The position numbers were made by a program, and so were the translations under genes. The notes below the pieces were generated by a model. It was not told where the DNA came from, searched no databases, and worked only from the letters and a program-made list of their open reading frames with translations. A stretch of DNA of 64,000 bases, from the NCBI RefSeq assembly GCF_000003815.2, contig NC_049987.1, forward strand, positions 13,632,378 to 13,696,377, in the 5' to 3' direction. Of this stretch, positions 11,499-64,000 are shown piece after piece (position 1 is the stretch's first letter; each line of letters starts with the position of its first letter). This DNA is from Branchiostoma floridae. Taxonomy: Eukaryota; Chordata; Leptocardii; Amphioxiformes; Branchiostomatidae.

Positions 11499-11562
11499 AT
11501 GTCATGGTTTCGCTTCCTCATTTAGTGGTTAGACTTCGCACTACAGTCCATACATGTACAAT

Positions 11563-22494: not shown

Positions 22495-22572
22495 ATCCAC
22501 GATTTTTGGCTTGTTTTCTACAGAAACTTTCTTGAGTTTTGTACAATTAGGTCGTATGATAACCGGAAATAG

Positions 22573-22862: not shown

Positions 22863-23225
22863 TATCTCACAGAGCAGAGGTACTCTTGTGGTATACTGTT
22901 GATTTCGATAACGCAAATGTACCTTCACCGTGCCTCCGATTGACTAACTCCAAACTTGCAAAGGCATTGTATTTTTTAAATTTGAAAAATAACGCAAGTG
23001 GCAAAATGCATTCGCCGTGCCTCGTCAGTGCCTCCACAGTGCCTCTATCATTCCACCACCATGCCGCGAACTTGTTCTGTTGTTAATCTGGACTTGAAAC
23101 ACAGCAGTGCCTCACGTCAGTGTGAGTGCAAGAGAAAATCGGCTAAAATAGGACGAAGGTGCCTCAGTGAACAAGCTCCAATGTACTTCAATAGTATCTC
23201 AAGAGTACCTTCGCTCAGTGAGATA
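22863..23225. mobile_element. MITE with about 30-bp inverted ends
   Basis: The left end reads CTATCTCACAGAGCAGAGGT and continues ACTCTTG. The right end (to 23225) is its inverted copy with a few changes (AAGAGTACCTTCGCTCAGTG on the + strand). The interior carries several GTGCCTC repeats, in both diverged and exact form, and explains the open frames there. Confidence 0.75.
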
Positions 23226-23694
23226 GAGGATGAAAAGTGACTTTTCTGCTGATACACCATCCTTATTTTGTAATGATCAATGAAAATGAAAAATATGTTG
23301 ATATTTGAATAGTTACAAGATTTCTGTGTAAAGAATTTTACTGATGATCAATGCAAGTCATTTTTGAGAAAATGTTCAATATGAAATGTTAGATCTAATT
23401 CAACTTATATCCAGGTATAAGAAATAAGTAAACTTTTCTGGAACTGTTTGAATAACTGCTATCATATAAGATAGAATAGGATAATAATTATGTTTTTAAG
23501 TTGTTAATGGGAGATTGTACAATAGATTCTCACATAGTTCAGGTATTTACACATGTACATGTGTTTGCTATACTTTTAGATAAAAGTTAGATTGTTATTA
23601 TGATCACTATGATATACTTTTATCAGAGATGTCCGAGATGAGTTTTAAATCATATATATATAATGTTACATGTAAAATACCTTATTGTGGGTGT
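23226..23694. other. No gene seen
   Basis: AT-rich intergenic sequence between the T3 3' flank and the duplicated T4 upstream block. Confidence 0.6.
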
Positions 23695-24080
23695 ACTTGC
23701 AGTTCTAGCTTAGCCATTTGTGTTGCCTATACTAAGTAAGGTTAAGTGGTAAGATTCCAGCCGATAGCAATGAAAATAAAATAAAATCACCTTTGCCTGG
23801 CGTTTTGTTGTGACGAATGAACCGTTAGTACTTCTTAATCAGAGTTAGAAAATTTGGTCAAAGCTTAAGTAAACAAACTGTTCTTGGAGAATACACAAAC
23901 GTGTAGTTCTAAACTGATTTTCTAGATGCAGTAGGCCCTACAATTCAAAGACACTGCACTCTCATTACATATAGATATGTAGGACAGAGACAGAGAGAGA
24001 GAAAGAAAGAGAAAAAGAAAACAGGTTTCTCAAGTTTCATTCAGGTCTCTTCGGTACACTTGCTGTCCAAAAAACACCTT
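23695..24080 (+). repeat. T4 upstream block shared with T2 (copy 2)
   Basis: Counterpart of 14515-14890, ending in a GAGA/GAAA purine run and ACAGGTTTCTCAAG before the RING exon. The distance to the start codon matches that of T2, so this is the likely promoter region duplicated with the gene. Confidence 0.7.
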
Positions 24081-24150
24081 GACAAAGACGTCATTGGCTT
24101 GTTTCGGCCCGGCTCATTCACTGGAATGTTACCAGTGTCGCAGCAAAAAC

Positions 24151-26938
24151 ATGGAGGGTTTAGAAGACGAGCTGACGTGTCCCGTGTGTCTGGAGTTGTA
24201 CACCTGTCCGCTCCTGCTGCCCTGTCATCACAACCTGTGCCGCAGGTGTGCGGAGGCGTTCCTCGAGACTCACCCCGATGAACCAGCGGGGGCACAGGCC
24301 GCCTGCTCCTCGGAACTAATCCCTTCCCTCGAAAACCTGGGAAGTTTCGCATGTCCAACATGTAGGGAAGAGGTTCGCTTGGGTGACCGTGGTGTACACG
24401 GGTTGGGAAGAAATCAAATGCTGCAGAACATCGTTGACAGGTAGGTTAACGGTGATTAAGTCTAAAGTTTTGCCAATCACACACGGTAAGGGAAATACAG
24501 AAAACAGATATAGCCACATTGCATTGAAACGTTGAATTTCTGGTAATAGCCATACTTCGCTGAAAAGTTTGACGTGTATATTCTGTCCCGGTGCATGTAT
24601 ATGCGACAATGTTCAACATTTCCTCACCAACATCATACATCACTACCAGGTTTAAACAACTCCATGCGCAGTCACAGTTGAAAAGTAGTACAGTGGCATG
24701 TCTGGTCTGTGATGCAACGCCACCTAAAGATGCAGTGAAGAGTTGCACCACCTGTAAGCTGTCCTACTGCGGAGATTGTCTGCAACTGCTGCACCCATCC
24801 CGCGGCGGGCTAGCCAATCACCAACTTGTATCACCTGTAGAGTCTTTTGATAACCAACAGAAGGTTAGAGCATACCGAAATTATTACTTAAGTTGTGTAA
24901 TTTTAACTCTGTGCAATAACACTTGTCCTGCTCGGATTTTTTTTTACTAATTTAACCTCCCTGAGCTGCTTGCTTCATCAGATCAGTAAAACTTGACTTC
25001 TTCTGTGCTGCTACTTCAGATTTATTTCCCCATTCGATGCGCTTTGCTGTGGTATGCTACGTTCAGTTGAGAAATACTCCATATTCCACAACCTATAAAA
25101 ATACGGGACCCACAAACAAGCACATCATGTGTGTCCAAACTACTAGTATGTGCATATGGTCCCAACAGGACAAGAATTACTCGGTTATATCGAATTAAAA
25201 TTTCAACTCTGGTCAATTGTTTCTGTAGACTGTGATGTGTCCGGATCACAAGAACAAGCCGGTAGAGCTTTACTGCAAGCTGGATAAGGCCCCAGTCTGC
25301 TGCCTCTGCAAGCTGGTCGGCAAGCACAAGGAACATGACGTCGCTGCCTTGGAGGAGGTGTATGGTGACAAAAAGGATGATCTACAGAAAGTCGTCGAAG
25401 AATTGAAGGGGAAAATCGAAGAAGAGACAACAAAGATCAAAGAACTTGAAAGTAGGAAGGCAGCAATGGAGAGTCACGGAGCTCAAGTGAAATCACAAAT
25501 CAAGACAGATTGTGACGCACTGATAAACACTATCCGAGAACGCGAGGTCGTTATGGTGGCGAAAGTAGATGCGGTATTAAAAGATGACACTACCAAGATA
25601 CAATCTTTCATTGACAGCTCTCATGAGAAAGTGAAGAGTGCAAATTCATGTCTGGCGTATGCCAAGGAGGCTGAAAAAGAAACCGATCCAGCTTGCTTCC
25701 TACAAGCCGAGCAGCTTATCACAGGCCGCGTGGAGCAAAGTACCAGCATGTTTGTCCATGATGAACAGTACAAACACATTCCCACTGACAGAGTCACCGT
25801 AGACCTTAGTCCGGTGAAGAGTCTATTGGAAGGCCTTGCTTTGCCGCATGCCCCGGTCATTTCTCTAGAAAAGTGCAAAGCTACAGCGCATGAGGCGACA
25901 GTGTCGTGGGACAGTGATGACGGCAAGGGTTATAAGTTCGATGTTCTGTGCTCCTCTCCCGGTGATTTCCCAGTCAGGATGCACAACGTACAAGGCAACT
26001 CATGCGAGGTGGAAGGTCTGGAGGAGAGCACAAGTTATGGTGTGACAGTTATTTCTAAAACTAACAGTGGTACAGCGAAAAGTGACATGTTTCCTATGAA
26101 AACAACTATGGAGCCAATGGGGATCGTGCAAGAACTTCCACATCTTTCGGAGCCAGAGGAGATCATACAAGAACTTCCACAACATCCGGAGCCAGTGGAT
26201 ATCATGCAAGAACTTCCACAACTTCCGGAGCCAGTGGATATCATGCAAGAACTTCCACAACATCCGGAGCCAGAGGAGATCATACAAGAACTTCCACAAC
26301 TTCCGGAGCCAGTGGATATCATGCAAGAACTTCCACAACATCCGGAGCCAGTGGATATCATGCAAGAACTTCCACAACATCCGGAGCCAGTGGAGATCAT
26401 GCAAGAACTTCCACAACATCCGGAGCCAGTGGATATCATGCAAGAACTTCCACAACTTCCGGAGCCAGTGGATATCATGCAAGAACTTCCACAACATCCG
26501 GAGCCAGTGGAGATCATGCAAGAACTTCCACGTTCTAACTATTTCACAGAGCGCTCAAATAGTGACGTGCCAGGGAGACGTGCGTCGAAACCGGCGGGAC
26601 ATTCAACTCATGATCAACCGGCAATGCAACACATCCCCTTGTTTGGAAACCCCGGCCCCAGTCGTATGGCTTTGAAGCCAGTGCAGATCTCAGAAGAACC
26701 ATGCACAAGAAACGTGCGTCGAAACCGACGGGACCTTCAACTCAACCGGCAATGCAACCCATCCCATTTTTTGGGAAACTCCAGTCCTATGCCTTTGGAG
26801 CCAGTGCAGATCTCAGAAGAACTTCCACCTCCTAACTATTGCACGCCTTCAAAGAAAGCCATGCACAAGAAACGTGCGTCGAAACCGACGGGACCTTCAA
26901 CTCAACCGGCAATGCAACCCAACCCTTTTTGGGATTAA
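24151..26938 (+). CDS. T4: MID-like TRIM with a 13-residue repeat array
   Basis: Exons 24151-24440, 24650-24863 and 25229-26938 give 737 residues, the longest of the cluster. RING, B-box1 ([13 protein letters not shown]), B-box2 (CPDHKNKPVELYC, CKLVGKHKEHD), coiled coil with COS-box-like region, and FN3 (about 373-461) follow as in T1. Residues about 467-601 are ten to eleven tandem copies of a unit like IMQELPQHPEPVD, encoded by a 39-bp minisatellite. The tail to 737 contains basic RRA/KKRASKP segments and GPSTQPAMQP, present as partly repeated blocks, one of them read in a shifted frame. No SPRY follows. Predicted role by family is ubiquitin ligase on microtubules; the repeat may form an extended multivalent arm, which is inference. 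A broken zinc-finger exon lies 560 bp downstream. Confidence 0.87.
26123..26526 (+). repeat. 39-bp coding minisatellite in T4
   Basis: Starts of the unit (ATC ATG CAA GAA CTT CCA) fall every 39 bases from 26123 to 26513: ten full units plus a partial one. Units differ mainly at His/Leu after PQ and at Asp/Glu before Ile, in an interspersed pattern. The reverse strand stays open in two frames through the array; those frames are shadows. Confidence 0.95.
26577..26933 (+). repeat. Three partial copies of the T4 C-terminal block
   Basis: A segment centred on CGTGCGTCGAAACCG and CAACCGGCAATGCAAC occurs around 26580, 26716 and 26876. The middle copy is preceded by a deletion relative to the last one, so the same bases are read in another frame there (RNVRRNRRDLQLNRQ against KKRASKPTGPSTQPA). 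All lie inside the open frame of T4 exon 3. Confidence 0.75.
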
Positions 26939-27495
26939 CAGTCCTACAAGTACGTATACATCACAGCACCACATTCTATGTAAGTCCAAAAGAAGGTCAT
27001 CTCGACCAATTAAATGGCAACGAGGAAAAAGCCCATTATGACATGCTCGACATTTAATAGCGGCATGAGATGTTGGTCAACTTTCAGCCTACAAGTTCTG
27101 ATGGCTCATTATGGAATTTGATTTTAAGTTTTTTCGACATATTGTATTTCATCCTATGTGGACATAGGTGTCTTTAGATTGGGGTAGACAAAATATGATA
27201 TAGATGACATGATTCATCATATTTACGTCCTTGTTTGCAATCATATTTTCCTTTCCGACCATTATACATTGTATGAGGGAAAGGGGTTTGTCCGCCCATA
27301 CAAGTAAAAAGATGAATAGTCCAAATGGCAAGATCAACAAATTGGGAGGGAAATATTTGGTGCACTTGCTTTCAAATATTGTCTGAGTCCTATCAAAATG
27401 CAAAATGTCTGAGCCTTTTACGTGTATAGTGACTTTGAGATCACCATTATCTATCAAAAGCAATATTAATGTTTTGAACATATCTTTCTCTCCAG

Positions 27496-29847: not shown

Positions 29848-29954
29848 ATGGAAGATGATATTATGGGTAATAACAAAGGAACACAAAATCATCAACTAAT
29901 AATAATAATCAACATTCATTGACCCATCTCGCTACAGGACTGCCGCGGTGCTAC

Positions 29955-30920
29955 ATGGGATGCTCCGTTGACAAAATAGCTGCCACAGATAAAGATCACG
30001 TGACCCCCAAGGTGAGCAACGCAAAGATGGAGGACTTACAGCGAAAGGTCGAGGAACTAGAGGTCAAGACGAAGGAGGAGAAGGGCAAAATACAGAAATC
30101 ATCCCTGAGCGCTCCATCGATAGATAAAGAAAAGTGCAGGACAAGTTTCGATATGGCGTACATAGAATGGCAGTCACCAGGCGACATCGGAGTCTTTGAA
30201 CTTCACTGTTCTTGTGCCGATGAGTCCTCAGATGACCCCCCAATCATTATTCAGAACATACGGGGGAACTCTTCTGTCGTTCGAGGCCTCAGTTCTGACA
30301 CAATGTACAAGTCTCAAGTCTGCGCAACTGACGGTAACAGAGTGTGTCCCAGTGCAACCGTTACCATGGAAACCATACCTTTCTTCTTCCGCTTCGACCC
30401 AGAAACGGCGGGAAAACGGCTGCACCTGTCGGAGAGAAACACGAGGGCGGTGAAGGGGGATGAGATCCCTTCTCTCCCCGAGGTCCCGGGGAGGTTCAAA
30501 ACATCCACGGTGTTTGGGACCGCGGCTGTGTCAGGGGGGAGGCACTACTGGGAGGTGGGGACGGAAAACGCCAGGTACTATTTGTTAGGGGTGGCGTATG
30601 GAGACGTGTCACGGGAGGTCAACATCGGTGAGTCGCCCGGAGGATGGGGCATCGAGCGGACATCGGGCGACACCTACAAGGCGCACGACCAAGGCAACTC
30701 TCATGACATAACTTTCTCTCCCCACCCAGACAAGATAGGCGTGCTTCTTGACTACAAAGCCGGGTTTGTGACCTTCCAAGACGCTGAGAGCAAGAAGGTC
30801 ATCCACACCTTCAAGGTCAAGTTCGAGCGGCCAGTTTACCCAGCGTTCTCTTTGTGGATCGGGTTGGGAGGGATATCGTCAGTTCTGAAACTACACACTG
30901 GGGTTTCCATACCTCAGTAG
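29955..30920 (+). CDS. S5: FN3-SPRY (B30.2) protein, TRIM-derived
   Basis: From the ATG at 29955 the frame gives 321 residues: a short coiled-coil-like stretch (about 18-50, LQRKVEELEVKTKEE), an FN3-like domain (about 52-140) and PRY-SPRY (about 143-315, with FRFDPETAGKRLHLS, GRHYWEV, IGVLLDYKAGFVTF and YPAFSLW). The first 40 residues align loosely with the B-box2/coiled-coil start of the neighbouring TRIMs but the zinc ligands are gone. SPRY domains bind protein partners; without RING it is not itself a ligase by sequence. A possible fuller model adds a 19-nt first exon (29848-29866, M-E-D-D-I-M) spliced over a 71-bp intron to 29938, which keeps the frame and gives 333 residues. No intron interrupts its SPRY, unlike S6. 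It could also be the last exon of a larger gene. Confidence 0.75.
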   Translation: MGCSVDKIAATDKDHVTPKVSNAKMEDLQRKVEELEVKTKEEKGKIQKSSLSAPSIDKEKCRTSFDMAYIEWQSPGDIGVFELHCSCADESSDDPPIIIQNIRGNSSVVRGLSSDTMYKSQVCATDGNRVCPSATVTMETIPFFFRFDPETAGKRLHLSERNTRAVKGDEIPSLPEVPGRFKTSTVFGTAAVSGGRHYWEVGTENARYYLLGVAYGDVSREVNIGESPGGWGIERTSGDTYKAHDQGNSHDITFSPHPDKIGVLLDYKAGFVTFQDAESKKVIHTFKVKFERPVYPAFSLWIGLGGISSVLKLHTGVSIPQ

Positions 30921-39006: not shown

Positions 39007-41380
39007 GTTGTTTCCTGTTCGGTGAACAAAATGAGGGGTAATTTCCAGTTCCAGTTCGACCCCCACAGTGCAGGCAGTTACCTGCACCTCAGTAAGAACA
39101 ACACCAAGGTCACCAAGGGGAAGATGCAGAAATGTAACTCCCTGCCAGACCTCATAACTGCAAAGTCAAAGACACATTCCAGGTAACCTTAACCTTCTGC
39201 CTACCAAGGTAGCCATCTGTTAGCAAATTTGCAGGCCTAGGAAAACTATGTTGTGTTTCCTGTTTCCCTACCTACCCTGGGAAAACCTGCAGACCCTAGA
39301 CTTTTTGGGTCACATAGTTTCCACATAGAATTTTTATTCAGCCTGCTTTCCTATTGAAGTAAAAACACTGCTTGTCCTATCTAATGAAGGATAAATGTAT
39401 CTATTATGCCAGACATTCAAGTTTGACATTGCAAGGCACTTAGTGTCCTCATGCATTTCACTTTAATTTGTTCAACTGTATTGTAAAATGTTACAATAGA
39501 GTTTTGGCCAGCCTAAAGAAATTACCCCCGGTATAAGGAAAAAAGATAATCCCTACCTACCGACCCTAATTTTTTCAGGATTGAAACGGGAAACACAACA
39601 TTTTTTCCTAGGCCTTACAGAGTCAGGCAATGGGGAGAAAGTTAAGGATGTTATCTTACATGTGTATATCATAAGCTTTCTACACCTGCACCACATTTGT
39701 GCTGAAGATAGCTTTAGGGCAGACATCAAAGTTGGGTCTTCCCACTGGAATAAGAAGCCTCAATTTTGACCCCAGTTTTTGCCAGCATCCATCTGCAGGA
39801 TTTCAACAACTCAAATCTGTCCTTACTCCAACTAAACTAGTGAACTGAACAAACCTCCTTGGTTTGACCAAAATAGGAAAGCTTGGTCTCTACATGTTTC
39901 TTCTGACCCCAAAGGTCTCCAGATTGGGCCAAAATCTACAAGACAAAGATAGAATTTTCAAGGATTTGAAGTGGCACTACAATCATATTCCCATTCTGAT
40001 CGCTCCACTGTGGAACACAACACTGACATCTGCCCTCTAGGTAGCACTCCTGGACTTAGGATTAACCATGGGTTAGAAGGGAATGAAGCATATTTAAGAC
40101 ATTTTAACCTTCTACATAGTAACTAATGTACAATCAATACAGATTTGGTATCAAATGGCTACCTTTAATACCTGAAAGTTAAAAAACTTAAATGACTTCA
40201 TCTATTGCCACCTCTTGATTGAAGCAAGGACAGTAGCTGCATTACAAGGTTTTGTGATCATCTGGAAAAGCTCAATCCAAGGATAGAGTTCAGTATTTCC
40301 ATCCGGAAGAACTCTATTCCACACAAATAGTTCTATTGAAACAATAAACAGCTGGATTGTTACTAAAACCAAAGTGACACTGTTAAGCCAGCAGGAAAAT
40401 AGCTTGGCCAACAATGGACATTTCTGTCAGTATTGTGACCAGTGTACCATCGATCACTGTACGTTTTTCAGAGTTCGGCTGATGTTTGCAGGTCTCCAAG
40501 CTCCTCCATTGTGGCCAATAGATTTTCAGGCAAAAAATACACTCTACTCTTTGACGATTTCTAATTTCAGTAAAGTTCAGGTGATCAATAAACCGAAGCT
40601 TGTTGACAGTGTGACACTGGCGTTCCACATATAGATAGCTCATGAGGTATTCTTGCGTCTGTATAGTGTTACTACTGATATTTCTTATACCTCACCTATG
40701 CCTAGGTCACATTTCCAAACCGGCGCCCGACCTGACAGCTAATTTGGGAATGAAAAATATGATACAAAAGAAACAAAAATACACAAATTGTAAAATGGAG
40801 AGTTGTAGGTATGATTTGTGTTTCTAGGTATTCATTTCTATTTTTCGTTTTCTTAAAAAGCCCGGTCGGGCCCTGGTTTGGAAATGTGACCCTAGCATTA
40901 GCAGTATATCTACTACTACTACTACTAAAATTTAAAACAGTTTAATAAATACTTTAATATTTGTTTTCCAGAAATGCCTACACAATCCTGGGAAACCGGG
41001 CGATATCAGAGGGGAAGCACTATTGGGAGATTCAAACGGGGGACGGCTCTTTCACCATCGGGTTTGCGTACAGAACGGTGCGAAGGGACAAGGACATCGG
41101 CTGGACAAAGAAGTCCTGGGGCTTGGAAAAACAGAAGTGGATCCCGTTAAAGCCTCACGATTCCATTTTCAAAGCTCTGGCTCAGGGAGAACAAACTGAG
41201 GTACACATTTCCACATGTCCAGAGAGGATTGGCGTCCATCTTGACTATGACCTTGGGAGCGTGACCTTCACAGACCCAGCAACCAAGGAGGTCATTCACA
41301 CCTTCAATGTCAAGTTTGAGGAACCAGTTGTCCCAGCATTCTCTCTGTACAAGGGGTCCTTGTCCATCTGCAGTGACTAG
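39007..41380 (+). CDS. S6: PRY-SPRY exons of a MID-like gene
   Basis: Two exons, 39007-39182 and 40972-41380, join in phase 2 to encode 194 residues and a stop. Exon one follows a TCCTCCCCAG acceptor and has FQFDPHSAGSYLHLSKNN, the PRY start; exon two has GKHYWEI, IGFAYRTVRRDKDIGW, IGVHLDYDLGSVTFTD, HTFNVKFEEPVVPAFSLY. Both resemble the SPRY of MID1-type proteins and of S5. The first exon opens in phase 0 after an acceptor, so earlier exons (FN3 or the whole TRIM) should exist to the left, but I could not find them. If the protein starts here, the first ATG is at 39031. The gene ends about 780 bp from the converging 3' end of MBTPS2. The 40972 exon boundary sits in the PRY/SPRY linker. Confidence 0.7.
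40702..40895. mobile_element. MITE in the S6 intron
   Basis: CTAGGTCACATTTCCAAACC at the left and GGTTTGGAAATGTGACCCTAG at the right are inverted copies, continued by GC-rich CGGCGCCCGACC / GGTCGGGCC blocks. Confidence 0.75.
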
Positions 41381-48101: not shown

Positions 48102-48892
48102 GTTATTCTCCTGTAGCTGGTGCCTCTCATGAATCTCTTATGACTTCTAACGTAAGGCAAATCACTAAATGCTACGTGTAAAAACAAAGACGATGCGATG
48201 CCATGTGCGCCATACGTAACTTATGCAGCTGACGAATCCGCTCTGGCAGCTTATTGAGCCACAGTCGAGTTCAAGCTAAGAAATAGCACTTTTCCTTCCT
48301 TTACTTTGCTGTCTCGTTTTCTCTGTAATATTTGGATCACTTTGATGCAAACTCCAGCACCATTTCATAGTAAGAACATTGACTCGACACTACGAAATCC
48401 GTGCGTGTTTTTTTTGTTTCCGGAAGTGAGACTACTCACATATCCCTGACCTGTATCTATATGCGCGTTATAAGAAATATTTCCAGATGGAATCTCTTAC
48501 TCCTGAATATAAAATGAACCGAAAAGGTGCACCGAGGAATGCATGTTCATTAAGTTATACTTTCAGTATTGAAAGAACGCTGATATGGGAATTTTTCTTC
48601 ACGTTATTGTGTCTTCTTGCGGAGTGATACAGTTATGACCTTTTGGGAACTATCTTGAACAAAGGGCTCCTAGCGAATGGCGACAACACTGCACTCCTAG
48701 CAGCGTCTCGAATGTCCCAGTTCCGCTGGAAGAAAGTTACAAACCACCGACATTACATGAAAACGTTAAGAAATCTATTCAACCAACAGCTAGTGCTTTG
48801 TAACTTTACTGTTACTTTAACGTCTAAGATCAAGACAATGGTTAAAAAGCAACTTTCCGGGTCCCCGATTTTCGCGGTTAATCCAATAGTTA

Positions 48893-49968
48893 CCTCCATG
48901 AAATGTCATGGAGGTTATATTTTACCCTGTGTTTGTCTGTGTGTCTGTGTGTCTGTCTGTCTGTGTGTAAACAAAATAACTCAAGAACGGCTTGGTGGAT
49001 TGGTTTCATACTTGGTGTGTTGGTAGGGTGTGATGAAAACTGGAAATGATTAGATTTTGGTTCCCCTAGCGGCTTCTCTTGGTACTGCAGCGCAACTTCC
49101 GGGTTTGCTATCTCGTGTTCTGAGCAAGCTATGGTCACGATTTTAAAGTTTTAGATAGCTCTTGTGCTCAGAAATAAGTGACATGAGTTTGGGCCCCATA
49201 GCGTCTAGTTTTGGGAAAGCAGGGGCATTTTTGTCAAAAACTTCTGAAGACGATAACTCAAGAAGGGAACAACGGATTTTCATCATTTTTGGTATGTAGG
49301 TACCTTAGACAATGTTTTACAAGATAAGATACTAATTATGCAAAACAGGAGTACATTTGCATAATTAATGAGAATATTCTATCATAGCATTTTTTTCAAT
49401 GTATCTCTTGTTCCAGACATGCTATGGTCTTGATATTTTGGTGGTAGATAGTTTTTGGTGTCATAAAAAAGTAGGGCAAGTTTCAGCCCCCTAACATTTA
49501 ATTGTGGAACTGCATAGGTGTTTTTGTCAAGACACTCCGAAGAGGATAACTGCAGAAAGAAACGATGGATTGCCTGCATTTTAGGCATGCGGGTAGCTTA
49601 GGCAAAGATGTTCATAATGATATACATGTTATGCAAATGAGGACTTAATTTGCATAATTAATGAGGAAATTGTATAGTTCCATTGTTTTCAATAACTGGA
49701 CCTCAATACATGTAACACATGTTAATTACGATAGGTGGAATATAATCAGATACCAAATATGGTAATGAGGAACTTATTTGCATAATTGATGTAAAAATTG
49801 CAAAACCGCTTTATGATTAATAATGGGAATTTCATAACTGTGACATGTGTACGTTAGTCAATGATGAACAACACCATGCATAAATTATGTTAATTTGTTA
49901 GTCAATTGCATGAAAGTTACGAAAGCTCTAAATTTTCATGGAGGTATGAGGTCGCCGAACTCTAGTTA
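48893..49968 (+). mobile_element. Interspersed repeat, copy 1
   Basis: Begins with the foldback ACCTCCATGAAATGTCATGG, then a GTCTGTGTGTCT microsatellite and ACTCAAGAACGGCT, and ends with TTTTCATGGAGGTATGAGGT followed by CGCCGAACTCTAGTT. Start and end share the inverted core ACCTCCATGAAA. No protein of a transposase is encoded, so it is a non-autonomous element. Confidence 0.75.
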
Positions 49969-50004
49969 TAATTATAAAGCATTGTAGAAAAGCAACGAAG
50001 TAAT

Positions 50005-51615
50005 TACCTCCATGAAATGTCATGGAGGTTATATTTACCTCCATGAAATGTCATGGAGGTTATATTTACCTCCATTTACCTCCATGAAATTTCATGGAGG
50101 TTATATTTTATCCCGCGTTTGTCTGTGTGTCTGTGTGTCTGTCTGTCTGTCTGTGTGTAAACAAGATAACTCAAGAACGGCTGGGTGGATTGGTTTGATA
50201 CTTGGTGTGTTGGTAGGGTGTGATGAAAGCTGGAAATGATTAGATTTTGGGCCCCCTAGCGGCTCCCCTTGGTGCTGCAGCGCAACTTCCGGTTTTGCTA
50301 TCTTGGTGTTCTGAACATGCTATGGTCACGATTTTTGAGTATTAGATAGCTCTTGTGCTCAGGAAGAAGTGACATAAGTTTGGGCCCCCTAGCGTCTAGT
50401 TTTAGGATAGCAGGGGCATTTTTGTCAAAAACTTCTGACGAGGATAACTCAAGAAGGGAACAGCGGATTTTCACGATTTTTGGTATGTAGGTACCTTGGA
50501 CAATGTTGTACAAGATGAAATACTAATTATGCAAAATAGGAGCAAATTTGCATAATTAATGACAACATTCAATCATAGCAGTTTTTTCTATGTATCTCTT
50601 GTCTTGGACGTGATATGGTCTTGAAATTTAGGTGGTAGATAGCTTTTAGTGTCATGACAAAGTGTAGCAAGTTTCAGCCCCCTAACATTTAATTTAGGAA
50701 CTGCAGGGGCGTTTTTGTCAAGACATTCCAAAGTGGATAACTGCAGAAAGGATTGACGGATTGGCATCATATTAGGCATGCGGGTACCTTAGGCAAAGAT
50801 GTTCATAATGATATGCATGTTATGCAAATGAGGGCTTAATTTGCATAATTAATGAGGAAATTGTATAATTCCATTGTTTTCCATAACTGGACTTCAATAA
50901 ATGTAACACATGTTAATTATGATAGGTGGAATATAAGTAGATACTAAATATGGTAATGAGGAACTTATTTGCATAATTTATGTAAAAATTGCAAAACCGC
51001 TTTATGATTAATAATGGGAATGTTATAATTGTGACATGTGTACGTTTGTCAATGATGAACAACACCATGCATAAATTATGTTAATGTCTTAGTCATTTGC
51101 ATGAAATTTACAAAAGCTCTAAATTTTCATGGAGGTATGAGGTCGCCGAACATTTAATTTAGGAACTGCAGGGGCGTTTTTGTCAAGACATTCCAAAGTG
51201 GATAACTGCAGAAAGGATTGACGGATTGGCATCATATTAGGCATGCGGGTACCTTAGGCAAAGATGTTCATAATGATATGCATGTTATGCAAATGAGGGC
51301 TTAATTTGCATAATTAATGAGGAAATTGTATAATTCCATTGTTTTCCATAACTGGACTTCAATAAATGTAACACATGTTAATTATGATAGGTGGAATATA
51401 AGTAGATACTAAATATGGTAATGAGGAACTTATTTGCATAATTTATGTAAAAATTGCAAAACCGCTTTATGATTAATAATGGGAATGTTATAATTGTGAC
51501 ATGTGTACGTTTGTCAATGATGAACAACACCATGCATAAATTATGTTAATGTCTTAGTCATTTGCATGAAATTTACAAAAGCTCTAAATTTTCATGGAGG
51601 TATGAGGTCGCCGAA
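50005..51615 (+). mobile_element. Interspersed repeat, copy 2, with triplicated head
   Basis: The 5' foldback (ACCTCCATGAAATGTCATGG) is present three times within 50008-50105, then the body runs as in copy 1. The 3' part is doubled (see 50684-51615). Inner short open frames are shared with copies 1 and 3 and have no recognisable function. Confidence 0.75.
50684..51615 (+). repeat. Apparently exact 465-bp tandem duplication
   Basis: The unit starting AACATTTAATTTAGGAACTG at 50684 restarts at 51149, directly after GGTCGCCGAA. Comparing the two units by eye I find no difference over 465 bp. The junction has only a 2-base overlap (AA). It is either a very recent duplication or an assembly artefact. 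Confidence 0.85.
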
Positions 51616-52548
51616 CTCTAGTTTACCCTGTGTTTGTCTGTGTGTGTGTCTGTCTGTCTGTGTGTAAACAAGATAACTCAAGAACGGCTGGGTGAATTGA
51701 TTTCATACTTCGTGTGTTGGTAGTGTGTGATGAAAGCTGGAAATGATTAGATTTTGGGTCCCCTAGCAGCTCCCCTTCGTACCGCAGCACAACTTCCGGT
51801 TTTGTTATTTCGGTGTTCTGAACATGCTATGGTCACGATTTTTTAGTATTAGATAGCTCTTGTGCTCAGGAAGAAATGACATAAGTTTGGGCCCCCTAGC
51901 ATCCAGTTTTGGGATAGCAGGGGCATTTTTGTCAAAAACTTCTGAAGAGGATAACTCAAGAAGGGAACAACGGATTTTCATGATTTTTGGTATGTAGGTA
52001 CCTCGGACAATGTTGTACAAAAAGAAATACTAATCATGCAAAATTGGAGAAACTTTGCATAATTAATGACAACATTCAATCATAGCAGGTTTTTTCTATG
52101 TATCTCTTGTCTTGGACGTGATATGGTCTTGAAATTTGGGTGGTAGATAGCTTTCAGTGTCATAACAAGGTGGAGCAAGTTTCAGCCCCCTAACATTGAA
52201 TTTGGGAATTGCAGGAGCGTTTTTGTCAAGACATTCCAAAGAGGATAACTGCAGAAAGGATTGACGGATTGGCATCATATTAGGCATGCGGTACCTCAGG
52301 CAAAGATGTTCATAATGATATACATGTTATGCAAGTGAGAACTTAATTTGGATAATTAATGAGGAAATTGTATAATTCCATTGTTTTCAATAAATGTAAC
52401 ACATGTTAATTATGATAGGTGGAATATAAGCAGATACCAAATATGGTAATGAGGAACTTATTTGCATAATTTATATAAAAGTTATATATATATCGATTTA
52501 CGAAAGCTCTAAAATTTCATGGAGGTATGAGGTCGCCGAGCTCTAGTT
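51616..52548 (+). mobile_element. Interspersed repeat, copy 3 (5' and internally truncated)
   Basis: It starts at TACCCTGTGTTTGTCTGTG directly after the end of copy 2, lacks the 5' foldback, and lacks part of the 3' interior (jump near 52484), ending in the same GGTCGCCGAGCTCTAGTT terminus. Confidence 0.7.
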
Positions 52549-53565: not shown

Positions 53566-56222
53566 TTACAAGTTAAAATTGACCAGTTTCTCTTCAATCG
53601 TGACGGCAGAGGGCCGACGGTGCGGGTTGGCGTGCCAGCACTTTGACATGAGCCTGTACAGCTCCATGGGGCACCCGTCAGGCCTCTCCAGCCTGCCGCC
53701 TTCCTTCAGAACCCACACAAGATGGCGGCACGACGGCCGTGCCACGTCCGAATAGTGTGGCTCCTCTCCACGTGTGGCGATCTCCCACAGCAGCACGCCA
53801 AACGACCACACATCACTCTGACAGGTGTACTCGCCGTCACGAAGGGCCTCTAGCGACATCCACTTCAACGGCAGGGGCTCATCGCGCCCGGCCTGGCGGG
53901 TACGCACGTACATCGTGTCCGTGTAGACGTCACGGGCTAGACCGAAGTCTGCCAGCTTGGCCACATTGTCGTCCGTCACAAGGACGTTCCTGGCGGCCAC
54001 GTCGCGATGCACGATTTGTAAGACTTCCAGCTCCTGTAGCGCGCGTGCCACACCGACGGCCAGGCCCACTAGATCCTTCAGCGTTATGTTGGGATTATCT
54101 CGTGACTTCCTCAAATAAGCCAAGAGGTCGCCTTGGGCAGCGTACTCCAGGACGATACGCTTGGGTTGTGACTCGGTGATCACTCCGTACAGCCGGACAA
54201 TGTTGGTGCGCTCCTCACCGTCCGTCACCTCAGCGTGCTCGTGTACGGTGATGAGGATGTCGGCTTCCCGGTAAAAGTCGCGGTGCCACTGGGTGTCTCC
54301 CTCCTGCTCCAACCGGGCAGCAGACACGGACTTAGCGGCTACCATGACTGGTCCTGCATCAGGAATGTTCAGTCGGGCTAAAACTACGTTTCCGAAACAT
54401 CCCTGTCCGACCAACCTCTCCAAAACCAGATCGTCTTCCTTCAGTTCCCATCGTGACACTTTGTCGATCATATCGCGACTTATGTTAAGAAGAGTGTGCA
54501 TTTCTTCCGCCTGGTCAGGCTGTTTGAGGAGATAGGTTCCCATTTCTTCCACTGCCTGTCTGTATTTCTTCCTGCGAATAATTACACCTGCCATAAAAGC
54601 TATTGGCACAACAAACAACACTGACAGTGCATACAGTTCATTTAATGTCCCTGTGCCAGTGGATCTTCCCGTTTTCGTACATTTCTCTCCTTCCTGACAC
54701 CTGCACGTTCCATTGACAGGATCACACAGTTCTGTTCCGTTACATCGACAGTGTTCTTGACAGTCCTGTCCAAATGTGCCGGCAGGGCATGAAGTGTTAC
54801 ACCTGACATCCGTCCAACCAGGAACACACATGCAGCCCTTCAACCGGTCACACCGTCCGCCATTCTCACAGTCACAAAGTTTCTCACAATGTTCTCCGTG
54901 TCTGTTCGGGGGGCATTCAGCCGCATTCAGTACATACCTGTCCTGTAAAGTGGTTCCATCCTGTGTGGTAACAGAACACACGTACACGCCATTGCTGCTC
55001 GAGTTCAGGAAATGTATCTGATATTCTGTTGTGTTAGCCGTGTCTTCAACTAGCGTTTCGGTTATGTTGGTGTATGTCGAGCGAAATGTTATGGTCATGA
55101 TTGAGATGTTCTCCACATTGACAGCCGTACAAGCCAGGGTTAGGTTACCACTGATGAAATTTCTTTCCTGCGGTATGGCGCGTATGAAGACGTCAGGAGT
55201 TGGGATATCACAGGCCACACCTTTCCAGCCAGGTGTGCACAGACAGGCTCCGTTGAAACTGTGACACCGCGCGCCGTTCTTACAGATGCAGTCCTTCTCA
55301 CACCTCCGTACCGTCCTGCTGCACAGCCGGCCACTACTGCATTGAATGACACAGAAATACTTCCACCCCTAAAACTATGAAAGATAAAGATGGTTGATTT
55401 TGATGGTACATGTGCGACACAGTTGAAGTCCAAAGGCAGTCTTGTATATATATTTCTTACGTGTCCTATTATCAGATATGTGTCTTTCCCACCCTGAAAT
55501 AGTGCTGCTTGTGAGGAAAAATTAGATGTTTTAGTCAGTTCAACGTCAATGGTCGCATCTGAGGTGGGTGAAAGGCATTGTATGCTTGTTATTCCTGCAT
55601 TGTACATCCTCTTCAAATCCTCTACTTTCCGTGGAGTCTCTAAAATGACCGTAAACTGCATTTCACAAACGTCATTGTCAATTTTGAACTGAAGTAGATC
55701 GTTGTGATGTAATTCGAAGTCATAATTCTCGTTAAGGTTTGACGCAGAACTGAGGACCGGTGATCCAGTCGAATCTCGTCCGATCCAGTCCGAAGATTCG
55801 GTAATGTTTATCAATCTGTCCGAGACCAGGTTGCTTTCGTCAGTTTCACAGCTTTTGTTGTAAACAGGCGGATACCCGCCGACGTCCAAAACATGAATAA
55901 TCGCGACGGCATAAGTGTAGTTTTCTGTAGTACCATCTTGGTAGCCACCGATCTGTATCTTTAGTTCGTAGATCGACTCTACTGTATGGTCTAGCGGATT
56001 CGCCACCCGGATAGAACCGTCCCGGCCTGATATGTTGAACCGTCCATATTGGTCGCCTGAGACGATCCTGTGGTCCCGTCCCTGTACTGTATTGGTCACG
56101 AGCCAGCCGACAGTAGTATTCTCAGGAATGGATACATTGAAGTGCCGCTGTGCATCAGCAGACCGGTATAGAAGTAGTGACCATAATACTGCATGCCAAA
56201 CACGACACAGTATGACAGCCAT
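53566..56222 (-). CDS. RTK-B: intronless cadherin/EGF/Ig receptor tyrosine kinase, frameshifted
   Basis: A close paralogue of RTK-A on the opposite strand. From ATG at 56222: signal peptide, cadherin-like domain (SIPENTTVGWL, IHVLDV) and the unique ectodomain region run in one frame to about residue 305. At about 55307 four bases present in RTK-A (within GGTGGGAGGTGT) are missing, so that frame ends at 55140. The original frame is open again from the first EGF to the stop at 53566: Ig-like domain, EGF repeats, transmembrane segment (LFVVPIAFMAGVII), and kinase with GQGCFGNV, AAKSV, HRDVAARN and DFG. Three residues of RTK-A in the N-lobe (in the PVHP stretch after GEER) are also missing in frame. 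The kinase half shows no damage, so recent inactivation or a base-call error is likely. AATAAA on this strand is at 53430-53425. Confidence 0.75.
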
Positions 56223-57240: not shown

Positions 57241-58182
57241 TCAGGTGACGCAGTCCTTCTCACACCTGCCTCCGCACCGTCCTGCTGCACAGCCGACTAC
57301 TTTTGCTGTGAAAGACATTGTGAAATTTCCACCCTCGGGAGGAAGAAAGCCCACGGAATCACGTGGCACATTAATGATACAATCAAAGACTAAATCAAGC
57401 GATGATTGTAGATTTCTCCAGTATGCCAGCAAAAGAAATCTACCTCTCTCACCTTGCGTACGTAACGGTCCTTAGGTCCTTTTATGAGATGTTTTTATCA
57501 ACATAACCTGAAATGTCGTAGCCGATGAAGGGGATATGCACCACACGCTTTTTATATCTCTTTCGTATAAGATATCTAACATTTCTTCATCTCTCTCATA
57601 ATCTGTAATGGCCCTTACTTCTGCTTCGCATGTATTGTTGTCCGTTTTGAGCTGAAATTGTTTGTTATGTTTCAATTGAAAGTCGTACACATCTTCAAAA
57701 TTGCTTGCCTGTTTAGATATGATTTTGCCGAGAGAGGTACCGACCACGTCGGATGATTCGGTAATGTTTATCAACCTGTCCGAGACCGTCTTTCTGCCGT
57801 CAGTTTCACAGCTTCTGTTGTAAACAGGTGGATATCCGTCGACGTCCGAAATGTGGATAATCACGACGACACCGGTGTTGCTTTCTGACAAATCATCTTG
57901 ATCGTTGCTGACGTCAACTTTCAACAGGTAGACAGACTGCACTGTGCAGTCTAGCGGATTTGCAACCCGAATAGAGCCGTCCAGGCCTGATATGTTGAAC
58001 CGTCCATATTGGTCGCCTGAGACGATCTTGTGGTCCCGTCCCTGTACTGTATTGGTCACGAGCCAGCCGACAGTAGTGTTCTCAGGAATGGATACATTGA
58101 AGTACCGCTGTGCATGAGCAGACCGGTATAGAAGTAGTGACCATAATACTGCATGCCAAACACGACACAGTATGACCGCCAT
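57241..58182 (-). pseudogene. RTK-C: truncated ectodomain-only copy
   Basis: ATG at 58182 opens a frame of 236 residues with the same signal peptide (MAVILCRVWHAVLWSLLLY), cadherin-like domain (NVSIPENTTVGWL, IHISDVDGYPP) and part of the following region, then a stop at 57472. Homology resumes in another frame (about 57432 to 57241, SVGFLPPEGGNF and GCAAGRCGGRCEKDC) and ends in a stop at the start of the first EGF. There is no transmembrane segment or kinase. The sequence is far more diverged from A and B than they are from each other. Most likely a decayed fragment; a secreted 236-residue product is possible since the first part is intact. Confidence 0.75.
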
Positions 58183-58994: not shown

Positions 58995-59525
58995 AGTCTA
59001 CTTCCGTCAACTCAATATGATCCTGTTGCACATGCACACAAAAAACTACTTCCTTGTAACATTATGGAGCAGATGTTGACCAAAACAGGACTGTTGACCT
59101 GATCATGACGTCCGAATGTCTACGGAATAACGTACGTACACGTTGCACGTATTATGACACTAAATGTACTGCTGCAATGCTGGTTTATAACATGTATGAG
59201 CATGCCAAGCTGACGACCTGAAGTGTCAAGAACAGTCCACCACAGTAGTCTACTCCTCCCTCGACTGATGATGGTGTGCAGGTATGCAGGAGTTGGACAT
59301 GGACATGAACGGAGTAAACAATACGACAGGACGAATGAAGCCGGCAAGAAGCGGATCAAAACAACCAAGAGGTAGAGGTAATGCTGTTTGATAACGGGAC
59401 AGGTACAAAGATACGGTTGTTTGAACTTAAAAGAGAGAGAGCAGTACAAGTGAAGGCAAGAAGCAGAACAAACAACATCCACTTCCCCTTTTGGCGCCTT
59501 TGCACATGTAGTAGTATCCAAAGAA
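58995..59525 (+). repeat. RTK 5' flank, inverted copy beside RTK-A
   Basis: Read on the - strand it carries the same blocks (TGTGCAAAGGCGCCAAAAGG near 59507-59488, and an ACTTCC...GTGCATGTGCAA-like block near 59035). Together with 58217-58620 it makes a head-to-head arrangement with its centre near 58.8 kb. Confidence 0.7.
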
Positions 59526-59537
59526 GCAAAGTAACAG

Positions 59538-59910
59538 CATCCTCCTAACGCCCGGTCCCCAACGGCACTACCTTATGGGGCCCTGCTGTCCCAGGGCCTA
59601 CCTACGGGTATTATGATTGTCGCCACAAACAAGCTGTCAACCAATCAGAGAACAGGCCTTCCTTGGGCTTCATTTTGTCGGAAGCTGTCTCGCAAAGGCC
59701 CCTGGGAAGCTATCAGCCAATCATGTTACGTATTACCATGACTTTGTTTGCTCACCATGCCAACGCCCGATCCCCAACGTCTGACTGCCCATACAAGGGC
59801 AAGCTCATTAATATGTAATAAGTAGGGCGGGTAATACCGCCGGCAAAAGGGAAGGAAAGCAGAGTACAGTCAGGAATAAATGACTGACGGTACTCTGCTG
59901 TAGGAGAATG
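59538..59910. mobile_element. 373-bp hAT-like MITE inserted before the RTK-A start codon
   Basis: The 8-bp AGTAACAG occurs at 59530-59537 and 59911-59918. Between them the ends are imperfect inverted copies (CATCCTCCTA and TAGGAGAATG). In RTK-C the same place has AGTAACAG once, directly before the start codon region, so the empty site is seen in the paralogue. An 8-bp target duplication fits hAT elements. Internal repeats of CGCCCGGTCCCCAACG type occur at 59549 and 59763. Confidence 0.8.
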
Positions 59911-59923
59911 AGTAACAGTAGTT

Positions 59924-62593
59924 ATGGCGGTCATACTGTGTCGTGTCTGGCATGCAGTATTATGGTCACTACTTCTATACCGGGCTGCTCATGCACAGCG
60001 GCACTTCAATGTATCCATTCCTGAGAACACTACTGTCGGCTGGCTCGTGACCAATACAGTACAGGGACGGGACCACAGGATCGTCTCAGGCGACCAATAT
60101 GGACGGTTCAACATATCAGGAAGGGACGGCTCTATCCGGGTGGCGAATCCGCTAGACCATACAGTAGATTCGATCTACGAACTAGAGATACAGGTCGGTG
60201 GCACCCAATATAATACTTCAGAAAACTACGCTTATGCCGTCGCGATTATTCACGTTTTGGACGTCGAAGGATATCCGCCTGTTTACAACAGAAGCTGTGA
60301 AACTGACCGAAGCAACCTGGTGTCGGACAAATTGATAAACATTACCGAATCTTCGGACTGGATCGGACGAGATTCGACTGGATCACCGGTCCTCAGTTCT
60401 GCGTCCAACTTTAACAAGCATTATGACTCCGAATTACATCACAACGATCTACTTCAGTTCAAAACTGACAGTGGCATCTGTGATATGGAATTTACGGTCA
60501 TTTTAGAGACTCCACGCAAAGTAGAAGAGTTGAAGAAGATGTACAACGCAGGATTAAAAAGCATGTCATGTCTTTCACCCGCTTCACATGCGACCATTGA
60601 CTTTGAACTGACTAAAACATCTAATCTTTCCTCACAAGCAACACTATTTCAGAGTGAGAAAGACACATATCTGATAATAGGACACGTAAGAAATATATAT
60701 ACAATACTGCCTTTGGACTTCAATTGTGTCGCACATGTACCATCAAAATCAACCATCTTTATCTTTAATAGTTTTAGGGGTGGAACCCTTTCTGTGTCAT
60801 TCAATGCAGTAGTGGCTGGCTGTGCAGCAGGACGGTACGGTGGGAGGTGTGAGAAGGACTGCATCTGTAAGAACGGCGCGCGGTGTCACAGTTTCAACGG
60901 AGCCTGTCTGTGCACACCTGGCTGGAAAGGTGTGGCCTGTGATATCCCAACTCCTGACGTCTTCATTCGCGCCATACCACAGGAAAGAAATTACGTCAGT
61001 GGTAACCTAACCTTAGTTTGTACGGCTGTGAATGTGGAGAATATCTCAATCGTGACCATAACATTTCGCTCGACATACACCAATATGACCGAAACGCTAG
61101 TTGAGGACACGGCGAATACAACAGAATATCAGATACATTTCCTGAACTCAAGCAGCAATGGCGTGTACGTGTGTTCTGTTACCATAATGGATGGAACCAC
61201 ACATCAGGACAGGTATGTACTGAATGTCTCTGAATGTCCTCCGAACAGGTACGGGGAACATTGTGAGAAACTTTGTGACTGTGAGAATGGCGGACGGTGT
61301 GAACGGTTGAAGGGCTGCGTGTGTGTTCCTGGTTGGACGGATGCCAAGTGTAACACGTCATGCCCTGCCGGCACATTTGGACAGGACTGTCAAGAACACT
61401 GTCGATGTAACGGAACAGAACTGTGTGATCCTGTCAATGGAACGTGCAACTTGTGTAGAGGAGAAACGTGCACAGAAACGGGAAGATCTACTGGCGCCGG
61501 CAGACGGAATTCAGATGAACTGTATGCACTGTCAGGTTTGTTTGTTGTGCCAATAGCTTTTATGGCAGGTGTGATTATTTGCAGGAAGAAATGGCGACAG
61601 ACAGTGAAAGAAATGGGAACCTATCTCCTCAATCAGTCTGAACAGGCGGAAGAAATGCACAATCTGATAAGTCGTGACACGATCGACAAAGTGTCACGAT
61701 GGGAACTGAAGGAAGACGATCTGGTTTTGGAGAGGTTGGTCGGACAGGGATGTTTCGGAAACGTAGTTTTAGCCCGACTGAACATTCCTGATGCAGAACC
61801 AGTCATGGTAGCCGCTAAGTCCGTGTCTGCTGCCCGGCTGGAGCAGGAAGGAGACGCCCAGTGGCACCGCGACTTTTACCGGGAAGCCGACATCCTCATC
61901 ACCGTACACGAGCACGCTGAGGTGACGGACGGTGAGGAGCGGCCTGTCCACCCCAACATAGTCCGGCTGTACGGGGTGATCACCGAGTCACGACCCAAGC
62001 GAATCGTCCTGGAGTACGCTGCCCAAGGCGACCTCTTGGCTTATTTGAGGAAGTCACGAGATATTCCCAACATCACGCTGAAGGATCTAGTGGGCCTGGC
62101 CGTCGGTGTGGCACGCGCGCTACAGGAGCTGGAAGTCTTACAAATCGTGCATCGCGACGTGGCCGCCAGGAACGTCCTTGTGACGGACGACAATGTGGCC
62201 AAGCTGGCAGACTTCGGTCTAGCCCGTGACGTCTACACGGACACGATGTACGTGCGTACCCACCAGGCCGGGCGCGATGAGCCGCTGCCGTTGAAGTGGA
62301 TGTCGCTAGAGGCCCTTCGTGACGGCGAGTACACCTGTCAGAGTGATGTGTGGTCGTTTGGCGTGCTGCTGTGGGAGATCGCCACACGTGGAGAGGAGCC
62401 ACACTACTCGGACGTGGCACGGCCGTCGTGCCGCCATCTTGTGTGGGTTCTGAAGGAAGGCGGCAGGCTGGAGAGGCCTGACGGGTGCCCCATGGAGCTG
62501 TACAGGCTCATGTCAAAGTGCTGGCACGCCAATCCGCACCGTCGGCCCTCGGCAGCCACGATTGAACAAAAACTGAACAACTTTAACCTGTAA
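59924..62593 (+). CDS. RTK-A: intronless cadherin-EGF-Ig-EGF receptor tyrosine kinase
   Basis: A single open frame of 889 residues. Signal peptide 1-24 (cleavage after AHA); cadherin-like repeat about 27-119 (SIPENTTVGWL, GSIRV, IHVLDVEGYPP); an ectodomain stretch I cannot assign (120-304); EGF about 305-340; Ig-like domain about 343-435 with C366 and C417; EGF/laminin-EGF-like repeats about 438-517; transmembrane helix about 533-553; kinase about 600-885. Catalytic features are all present: glycine loop GQGCFGNV (607-614), K632 (AAKSV), HRDVAARN (743-750), DFG (763-765). The P+1 segment reads WMSLEAL (792-798) rather than the usual WMAPE-type. It should be an active surface receptor kinase; the ligand is unknown. 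The kinase resembles FGFR/RET/Tie-group RTKs in general style. Lack of introns suggests a retroposed ancestor. AATAAA lies at 62694. Confidence 0.92.
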   Translation: MAVILCRVWHAVLWSLLLYRAAHAQRHFNVSIPENTTVGWLVTNTVQGRDHRIVSGDQYGRFNISGRDGSIRVANPLDHTVDSIYELEIQVGGTQYNTSENYAYAVAIIHVLDVEGYPPVYNRSCETDRSNLVSDKLINITESSDWIGRDSTGSPVLSSASNFNKHYDSELHHNDLLQFKTDSGICDMEFTVILETPRKVEELKKMYNAGLKSMSCLSPASHATIDFELTKTSNLSSQATLFQSEKDTYLIIGHVRNIYTILPLDFNCVAHVPSKSTIFIFNSFRGGTLSVSFNAVVAGCAAGRYGGRCEKDCICKNGARCHSFNGACLCTPGWKGVACDIPTPDVFIRAIPQERNYVSGNLTLVCTAVNVENISIVTITFRSTYTNMTETLVEDTANTTEYQIHFLNSSSNGVYVCSVTIMDGTTHQDRYVLNVSECPPNRYGEHCEKLCDCENGGRCERLKGCVCVPGWTDAKCNTSCPAGTFGQDCQEHCRCNGTELCDPVNGTCNLCRGETCTETGRSTGAGRRNSDELYALSGLFVVPIAFMAGVIICRKKWRQTVKEMGTYLLNQSEQAEEMHNLISRDTIDKVSRWELKEDDLVLERLVGQGCFGNVVLARLNIPDAEPVMVAAKSVSAARLEQEGDAQWHRDFYREADILITVHEHAEVTDGEERPVHPNIVRLYGVITESRPKRIVLEYAAQGDLLAYLRKSRDIPNITLKDLVGLAVGVARALQELEVLQIVHRDVAARNVLVTDDNVAKLADFGLARDVYTDTMYVRTHQAGRDEPLPLKWMSLEALRDGEYTCQSDVWSFGVLLWEIATRGEEPHYSDVARPSCRHLVWVLKEGGRLERPDGCPMELYRLMSKCWHANPHRRPSAATIEQKLNNFNL

Positions 62594-64000
62594 ACACCAA
62601 TACAGCTGTTCAGGCATTGACTAGAGAATGCAACTATGACTTACCTTCGCAAATGGAACAAATGTGAGAACTTGTACATACAGTATATACTAGAATAAAG
62701 ATTCTATTCAAGAACATTTTAGCAATATATGACTTTTTGTCGCAAGAACGCCATGTTAATTCTTATGGCACAGTTTGGCGTATATAACTATTCGACCTGA
62801 GAATATCAAGCAATTGTCTGACATGATGTATTTAACGTACACTGTCAGCAAATATTAGACTTTAATTTAGGAACAATGTTTTGCTATCTTTATGAAACAT
62901 GTTATCTTTTCCGGAAAATTCGGTGGTGTATATTTGGCAGTTTCCAGGATATCCGTTCCTTTCTCCATTAAGATTTATTATGGTGTGATTTAGATGTAAA
63001 GATCAAAAGGGACAACCTTATAGTTTTTCTTCTACTATTCTTTTCAGCTATGACATTTCTAACATTGCTACTTTTTTATCAATCTTCCCAGCACATAGCA
63101 ATGACTGGCATCAAAGCAACCTGTGCTAAGGAAATTATATTCTGATAAATAAACAAGTGACCATAGGTAACATATTCTGTGTCATATTTATGGTTTCCGC
63201 CGCATCAGTTGCAACAATATATATCATGCCGATGACAGTCTCAGACAGACAAATAACGACGAACAGGAAAGAAAACGAAGCCCTGATATTACTGATAGCT
63301 TACCAGGACAAAGTATGTACATGTTTATCATAACTCTTGCACTGACCAATGCAATAGGTATTCCTCTACCACCACAGCTGTTCTCTGCACAGTAGAGAAC
63401 ACATAACCCCATATCTGCATCACGCAACATCTGCTTTGCAATATCCAATTACCGCAAGGCCTTACGCGCGGAGATAAGGCAGACCTTGAGAAATATACCG
63501 AATGACGTAGGGGTGATATCTGAATTATTACATAAATTATAAGAACAGCCACCGGGCGCAACAACGTACATCATCGCGCAACTGAGTGCAGACGACATGC
63601 CAAACTACATACGAATGCGGCAAACGGAATATAACGTTAGATATACAGATGCGAACACTCATCACATCCACCGATCACAATACTCTGTCGTCGGAGGTTA
63701 CCCTCCGTCACAGAGTAATTACAGAAACTTATGATTTGGGACCATTCAGTCATGTTTGGACAGCCGCAATACCTTTCTTAACTGCTAGAGGTCGTGCGCT
63801 TGTTATTCGCCGGTTGCTTCATCAATTAATCTGATCATCAAAGGTAACCAATGGCAATGGATTTTTTCCCATTGGCTGCCCAAAGTGAGATGGACAAGAT
63901 TTCAGACATTATATATGAATTTGAATATAAGTCTCCTCCCTGTAACCGTATGGGACCGTTTTTTGACGACAATGTCGAGGAGTTGCACGACCTTGCATTT
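62594..64000. other. RTK-A 3' flank and intergenic sequence
   Basis: Contains the AATAAA at 62694 and, to about 63050, sequence that matches the RTK-B 3' flank in inverted orientation. Beyond that no gene is seen. Confidence 0.6.

Follow-up and report, generated by a model that had tools for sequence, protein, structure and literature searches.

Receptor tyrosine kinases (RTKs) are usually few, conserved and multi-exon. In the lancelet Branchiostoma floridae, a 64,000-nucleotide stretch of contig NC_049987.1 (the window) carries an RTK frame that is a single exon, that joins extracellular domains in an order for which the initial annotation knew no vertebrate RTK, and that lies beside further copies. 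What kind of receptor is this, how are its copies related, and which of its parts vary?

The frame was exactly as annotated, running from ATG to TAA at 59924-62593 on the forward strand and encoding 889 aa with zero internal stops (copy 1). Its description as a single exon also held, as a property of the genomic frame, which is uninterrupted; a spliced 5' leader may lie upstream. Everything that defines an RTK was found in copy 1, namely an ectodomain, the catalytic K, HRD and DFG, with the signal peptide and transmembrane helix recognized by eye. Its parts are listed below.

59924..62593, + strand: copy 1, single-exon receptor tyrosine kinase; intact ORF, kinase PF07714 1.3e-70
59924..59998, + strand: signal-peptide-like start, residues 1-25; hydrophobic N terminus, by eye
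59999..60280, + strand: cadherin repeat, residues 26-119; PF00028 in 32/41 members, CELSR1 profile match
60281..60820, + strand: hypervariable module, residues 120-299; family alignment
60821..60946, + strand: EGF1, residues 300-341, the family's most conserved segment; mean conservation 0.82, median dN/dS 0.07
60947..61231, + strand: Ig-like domain, residues 342-436; Ig_3 in 39/41 members, Tie2 alignment
61232..61468, + strand: two further EGF units, residues 437-515; other members carry more
61526..61594, + strand: putative transmembrane helix, about residues 535-557; hydrophobic stretch by eye, family alignment
61703..62578, + strand: tyrosine kinase domain, residues 594-885; GxG loop, VAAK, HRDVAARN, DFG, DVYTDTMY, PLKWM
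62694..62699, + strand: AATAAA polyadenylation-type signal, ~100 bp past the copy 1 stop

The initial annotation held that an ancestral gene was "then copied". Copies do exist, and the phrase far understates them, with at least 78 kinase matches, spread over 14 contigs, in frames that reach at least 830 codons. We searched 513,431,437 bp of genome with the kinase as query and obtained at least 134 matches, all counts from this search being lower bounds. Among the best 113 of these, 107 span 240 or more residues, with identities of 44-100%, and their open frames are of at least 830 codons in 78 cases, of 400-829 codons in 17 and shorter in 12. The best 113 are also clustered, 78 of them lying within 60 kb of another. 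The family probably numbers about a hundred single-exon RTKs.

Since single copies are too diverged for reliable domain calls, we tested the domain parts across the family. In copy 1 itself, the kinase is unambiguous (PF07714, E=1.3e-70, residues 601-884), the cadherin segment scores 26.3 bits against PF00028, below the curated cut-off of 28.8, the EGF match is weak (hEGF, 0.0034), and the Ig stretch has no Pfam match when copy 1 is searched alone and aligns with the Ig of Tie2. We therefore sampled 46 different genes, of which 41, all distinct and including copy 1, were aligned. Cadherin PF00028 was found in 32/41 members at E<=0.1 (best 5.9e-14), Ig_3 in 39/41 and EGF_laminin in 35/41 (both E<=0.01), and the family N-terminal profile matches single CELSR1 repeats (domain E 1.3e-10). 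The annotated order of cadherin repeat, ~180-residue module, EGF, Ig, EGFs, transmembrane helix and tyrosine kinase is therefore real. It is shared in one frame by 44 of the 46 genes: three of these, beyond the aligned 41 (L045, L046 and L048), were placed by inspecting their sequences and by full-length blastp against family members, and two of the aligned 41 have a stop within the kinase (L006 and L025). The remaining two are the second window copy, split by a frameshift, and L047, which reads N. The cadherin-repeat consensus ends in DVxGYPPxYN; the DxNDN-type linker motif of calcium-binding cadherins was not found in it.

Catalytic patterns are conserved across the 41 rows (P-loop in 40, VAxK in 39, HxDxAARN in 40, three of them with HGD, DFG in 41 and PLKWM in 39), and among the misses are single changes, HRDVATRN of L034 for example. 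Because these residues are conserved and the kinase dN/dS is low (median 0.30), we infer an active kinase. In one subgroup (L037, L039, L040 and L045), HGD replaces HRD in the catalytic loop. Twenty of the 41 members, copy 1 not among them, end in a C terminus that we take to be of the class I PDZ type.

No intron was found in the frames examined. In contrast, the intron-bearing gene of VCBP3 (PDB 2fbo) matches the genome exon by exon, its three main pieces at 96, 86 and 97% identity. In four distant relatives, an ectodomain frame of 639-675 aa and a kinase frame of 318-329 aa lie 729-823 bp apart, compared with 366-420 bp in three other relatives measured. The extra bases between the EGFs and the kinase, about 300-460, are possibly one intron, or an insertion.

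C18:15414942-15417240: gapped relative
C18:15419499-15421821: gapped relative
C13:12712043-12714262: gapped relative
C1:28319821-28322058: gapped relative

Matches to EGF1 in short frames, at up to 69% identity, also occur at C6:18275070, C6:18269635, C200:614099, C3:2.85-2.87 Mb and C8:23.5-23.7 Mb, a pattern that genes with introns and a related EGF exon should give.

We further compared the family with known receptors. No PDB chain matched the cadherin, EGF-Ig-EGF and kinase blocks together among the best 60 matches per search, which agrees with the annotated claim that this order is known from no vertebrate RTK. The EGF-Ig-EGF stretch has Tie2/TEK, the angiopoietin receptor, as its best PDB match (2gy5, 9lv4; E 1e-20 with a single sequence, 3e-27 with a profile), whereas the family differs from Tie2 in adding a cadherin repeat and the module and in its single exon. 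Tie carries fibronectin III repeats before the membrane; no fn3 match was found in copy 1 at E<=1, nor among the 17 Pfam families listed for the EGF-Ig-EGF of the 41 members, and Tie was absent among the 60 best PDB kinase matches. RET shares a cadherin-type repeat outside the cell and stands among the best 60 kinase matches (258 bits). It has four cadherin-like repeats and a cysteine-rich domain, while the lancelet family has one such repeat plus EGF and Ig, and the RET ectodomain was absent among the best 60 of 166 matches to the N-terminal profile. By domain composition, the family is thus neither Tie, with no fn3 match, nor RET, with one cadherin repeat. FGFR3 is the best kinase match among the best 60, scoring 270 or 257 bits depending on the construct, on a par with RET. 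The FGFR ectodomain contains neither cadherin nor EGF and shares only the Ig fold. EGFR (9p9u) scored higher and was rejected as nearest kinase, its score being summed from two stretches. The profile matches to PDB chains thus mark the family kinase as FGFR/RET-like.

An expanded TIE/FGFR/PDGFR/RET group of amphioxus tyrosine kinases, arisen by massive duplication, was reportedly described by D'Aniello et al. 2008 and is said to share intron positions in the kinase domain. By that account, the group and the present family would have in common the animal group, the kinase kinship and the massive duplication; the kinases read here offer no introns for comparison, and part of the family may have been catalogued in that work. 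A search of literature titles and abstracts found no such family among the entries listed, yet D'Aniello et al. 2008 lay outside its scope, so a claim of novelty would be unsafe. The available portions of PMC6071037, PMC4967905, PMC4284660, PMC3136929, PMC5041008, PMC8662651 and PMC5979338 give no account of it.

On the family alignment, the module is the deepest variable part of these receptors, a point missed by the initial annotation. The mean share of the commonest residue across the 41 members is 0.33 in the module, compared with 0.50 in the cadherin repeat, 0.82 in EGF1, 0.50 in Ig and 0.64 in the kinase. The other 40 members match the module of copy 1 at 15-23% identity, alignments of distant modules being uncertain (blastp E<1e-3 in 245/820 pairs). 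Cysteines 125 and 186 are present in 41/41 members, and 216 and 268 in 37/41. Between some close paralogs, the module is 40-60% identical while the adjoining cadherin repeat and EGF1 exceed 90%, synonymous sites included. In 30-codon identity profiles of L031 against L043, the cadherin repeat stands at 91-100%, the module at 43-62% and EGF1 at 96-98%, and profiles between close paralogs have the shape of a block with sharp edges on both sides and no slope. Comparable drops occur in the C18, C8/15 and C1/4 groups, and shallower ones in C5, C17 and C10. The module is not the sole variable part, since identity falls in the Ig and in the membrane and juxtamembrane stretch as well, reaching about 70-85% in many C12 pairs. 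Four genes (L031, L033, L034 and L041) have nearly one common module.

What the module is related to was sought in several ways. Pfam on the 41 N-terminal segments gave no recurring family save Cadherin, and the best match of the module profile in PDB was unrelated (E 0.096). A second cadherin repeat was not supported (hhalign probability 0.6%), and AlphaFold2 with a 4-row alignment of window sequences gave a mean pLDDT of 31.5. A single-sequence search with the module matched the three window copies only, because the module changes fast and not because it is absent elsewhere. Median dN/dS in the 40 closest pairs was 0.30 in the kinase, 0.07 in EGF1 and 0.47 in the module. General positive selection on the module, with its dN/dS of about 0.5, was not supported; Ig dN/dS exceeded 1 in 9 of the 40 pairs, all from one group.

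The two neighbours of copy 1 and the DNA upstream of it are as follows.

53566..56222, - strand: copy 2, same domain order, frame interrupted close to codon 307, where EGF1 starts, by a 4-nt deletion
57250..58182, - strand: copy 3, N-terminal fragment only, with an in-frame TAA
59480..59537, + strand: promoter-proximal or leader block, CACTTCCCCTTTTGGCGCCTTTGCACAT..., common to all three copies
59538..59910, + strand: insert of ~373 bp, separating the leader block from the copy 1 ATG, absent in copies 2 and 3

Copies 1 and 2 are 90% identical in nucleotides over 3.1 kb, including 457 bp past the stop, and patches of upstream DNA, 70-73% identical, are common to the window copies. Because of these shared upstream patches and, for copies 1 and 2, the shared 457 bp, the window copies are, on their flanking DNA, duplicates made at the DNA level. 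Copies 1 and 3 are 92-99% identical over codons 1-60 and mostly 50-62% identical in the module, with a dS of 0.02 over codons 1-60, 0.6 in the remaining cadherin repeat and 1.1 in the module; the edge of divergence thus lies inside the cadherin repeat, dS already being 0.6 there past codon 60. Between copies 1 and 2 there is little module effect (dS 0.11 in the module, 0.06 in the kinase).

The ends of the insert are short and inverted (CATYCTCCTA), and it is flanked by a target duplication of 8 bp, AGTAACAG, at 59530-59537 and 59911-59918. It is MITE-like, and presumably hAT-like, going by the length of the target duplication. Within the leader block, TTTTGGCGCC (window 59480-59510), which we take to be an E2F-like sequence, is conserved upstream of all three copies. 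Elsewhere in the window, a TRIM-like gene array at about 11560-26940 contains several copies, 68-88% identical, of RING, B-box and fn3 or coiled-coil pieces. At 26110-26531, 78-bp tandem repeats, 91-94% identical, encode PEPVDIMQELPQ-type units within a B-box/fn3 frame. SPRY-domain frames lie at 29919-30920 (with PRY) and 40961-41380, and a direct-repeat block at 48890-52483 holds many repeats that are 87-99% identical. Neither Rfam, at its gathering threshold, nor a tRNA scan gave a hit in the window.

We then asked how a variable block comes to lie between such similar flanks. In the 40 closest pairs, median dS was 0.52 in the module, 0.07 in the cadherin repeat and 0.12 in the kinase. The same was seen at four-fold sites, compared in 48 pairs of 39 intact genes with a kinase four-fold divergence below 0.15: differences numbered 669/6285 in the kinase, 179/2078 in the cadherin repeat and 585/2190 in the module. 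Module divergence exceeded that of the kinase in 42 of the 48 pairs, six showing no excess; the pairs are non-independent, as 32 of them come from one nine-gene group. Similar 3' flanking DNA, starting within 100 bp past the stop, was absent in 30 pairs and present in 18. The dissimilar flanks of the 30 suggest old genes whose constant parts were overwritten. In L034/L035, L034/L038, L035/L038 and L032/L041, 3' flanks are 92-96% identical over about 470-600 bp and the modules differ, which is fitted as well by replacement of the module after a recent duplication.

Trees of 11 genes, eight of them located at 0.6-1.0 Mb of C12 plus three more, conflict between the two parts. The kinase tree joins L034 with L035 (100/99), while the module tree joins L034 with L031, L033 and L041 (100/99). 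Either grouping is rejected by the data set that yields the other (AU p 1.9e-4 and 6.9e-6), the groups having been chosen after viewing the trees. In both trees L033 falls together with L041, and branches of the module tree are long. GC3 stands at 0.44 for the module and 0.60 for the kinase, and the module lies below the kinase in 41/41 members, the cadherin repeat in 40/41, EGF1 in 39/41 and Ig in 32/41. This contrast and the low dS could come in part from codon selection in the conserved domains. In the portion of a fugu protocadherin study available to us, the same GC3 contrast is used as evidence of conversion (PMC1852091). Clustered protocadherins, as that portion describes them, resemble the lancelet family in their large single exons and in regional conversion with raised GC3 beside diverse recognition domains; unlike it, they are not kinases, and their diversity lies in the cadherin repeats rather than in a separate module. 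From synonymous divergence, flanks, tree conflict and GC3 contrast, we conclude that the paralogs recombine, probably for the most part by conversion of their constant parts.

Could tandem duplication with fast module evolution, under relaxed or diversifying selection and without any recombination between paralogs, produce the same pattern? The clustering of 78 of the best 113 matches within 60 kb of another and the similar 3' flanks in 18 of 48 close pairs are in its favour. However, selection on the protein alone does not raise synonymous divergence, and in the same pairs four-fold sites differ by 27% in the module and 11% in the kinase; dS reaches 1.6 in the module against 0.14 in the kinase (L033/L043), and kinase and module trees conflict. 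We therefore regard birth and death alone as distinctly unlikely. Repeated retroposition from an expressed parent, each copy being a processed gene, would explain why the frames examined are without introns, but it is contradicted by the upstream patches common to the window copies and the 457 bp past the stop common to copies 1 and 2, by the genomic clustering, and by the dissimilar DNA past the stop in 30 of 48 close pairs, where a retrocopy should carry the 3' UTR; we consider it very improbable. A retroposed ancestor of the whole family, to which the initial annotation attributed the single exon, is possible; no parent gene with introns was identified.

Another way to place different modules between similar flanks is to move whole modules by recombination in the conserved flanks, these being little homogenised themselves. 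The module edges are sharp on both sides, the four genes with one module type have kinases that do not group together, and several pairs combine 92-96% identical 3' flanks and similar kinases with different modules, all of which fits such an exchange. Nevertheless, the constant parts show the raised GC3 that conversion should leave, and the 3' flank is dissimilar in 30 of 48 pairs despite a similar kinase, so that we hold exchange as the main process to be unlikely, if less so than birth and death alone. We lean, with some confidence, towards a large lancelet RTK family in which recombination between paralogs maintains a common frame around one hypervariable, probably ligand-binding module.

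In the reading we favour, the common frame consists of the cadherin repeat, a Tie-like EGF-Ig-EGF stalk, the transmembrane helix and an FGFR/RET-type kinase, with the cysteine-bearing module placed near the tip. Recombination, mainly gene conversion, would keep the cadherin part and the parts from EGF to kinase alike while the module diverges, and in some pairs the module itself may have been replaced. The Tie-like stalk would act as a constant spacer, and no part is freer to differ than the module. The module is probably ligand-binding, with ligands that would differ between members. Ligand binding would dimerise the receptor and lead to trans-phosphorylation on the DVYxxxxY loop, so that a single signalling output would be reached from many different inputs, much like a germline repertoire that recognizes microbial, allogeneic or chemical ligands. 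The PDZ-type C terminus of 20/41 members would place those receptors at a membrane scaffold. That the about one hundred RTKs form such a germline repertoire, a hypervariable cassette in a conversion-kept frame turning many ligands, be they self/non-self, microbial or chemical, into one growth-factor-type signal, is a tentative proposal, which we consider possible rather than likely.

Single-exon RTKs that probably number about a hundred and vary most in an outer module would be an unusual employment of this receptor class, to be set beside recognition repertoires like the clustered protocadherins. The family is also a clear case of sharing and diversity on neighbouring parts of one exon. If the proposal is true, it would describe an animal recognition system with RTKs as its variable receptors, and the family offers a concrete candidate, open to testing, for how an invertebrate chordate might recognize non-self or chemicals.
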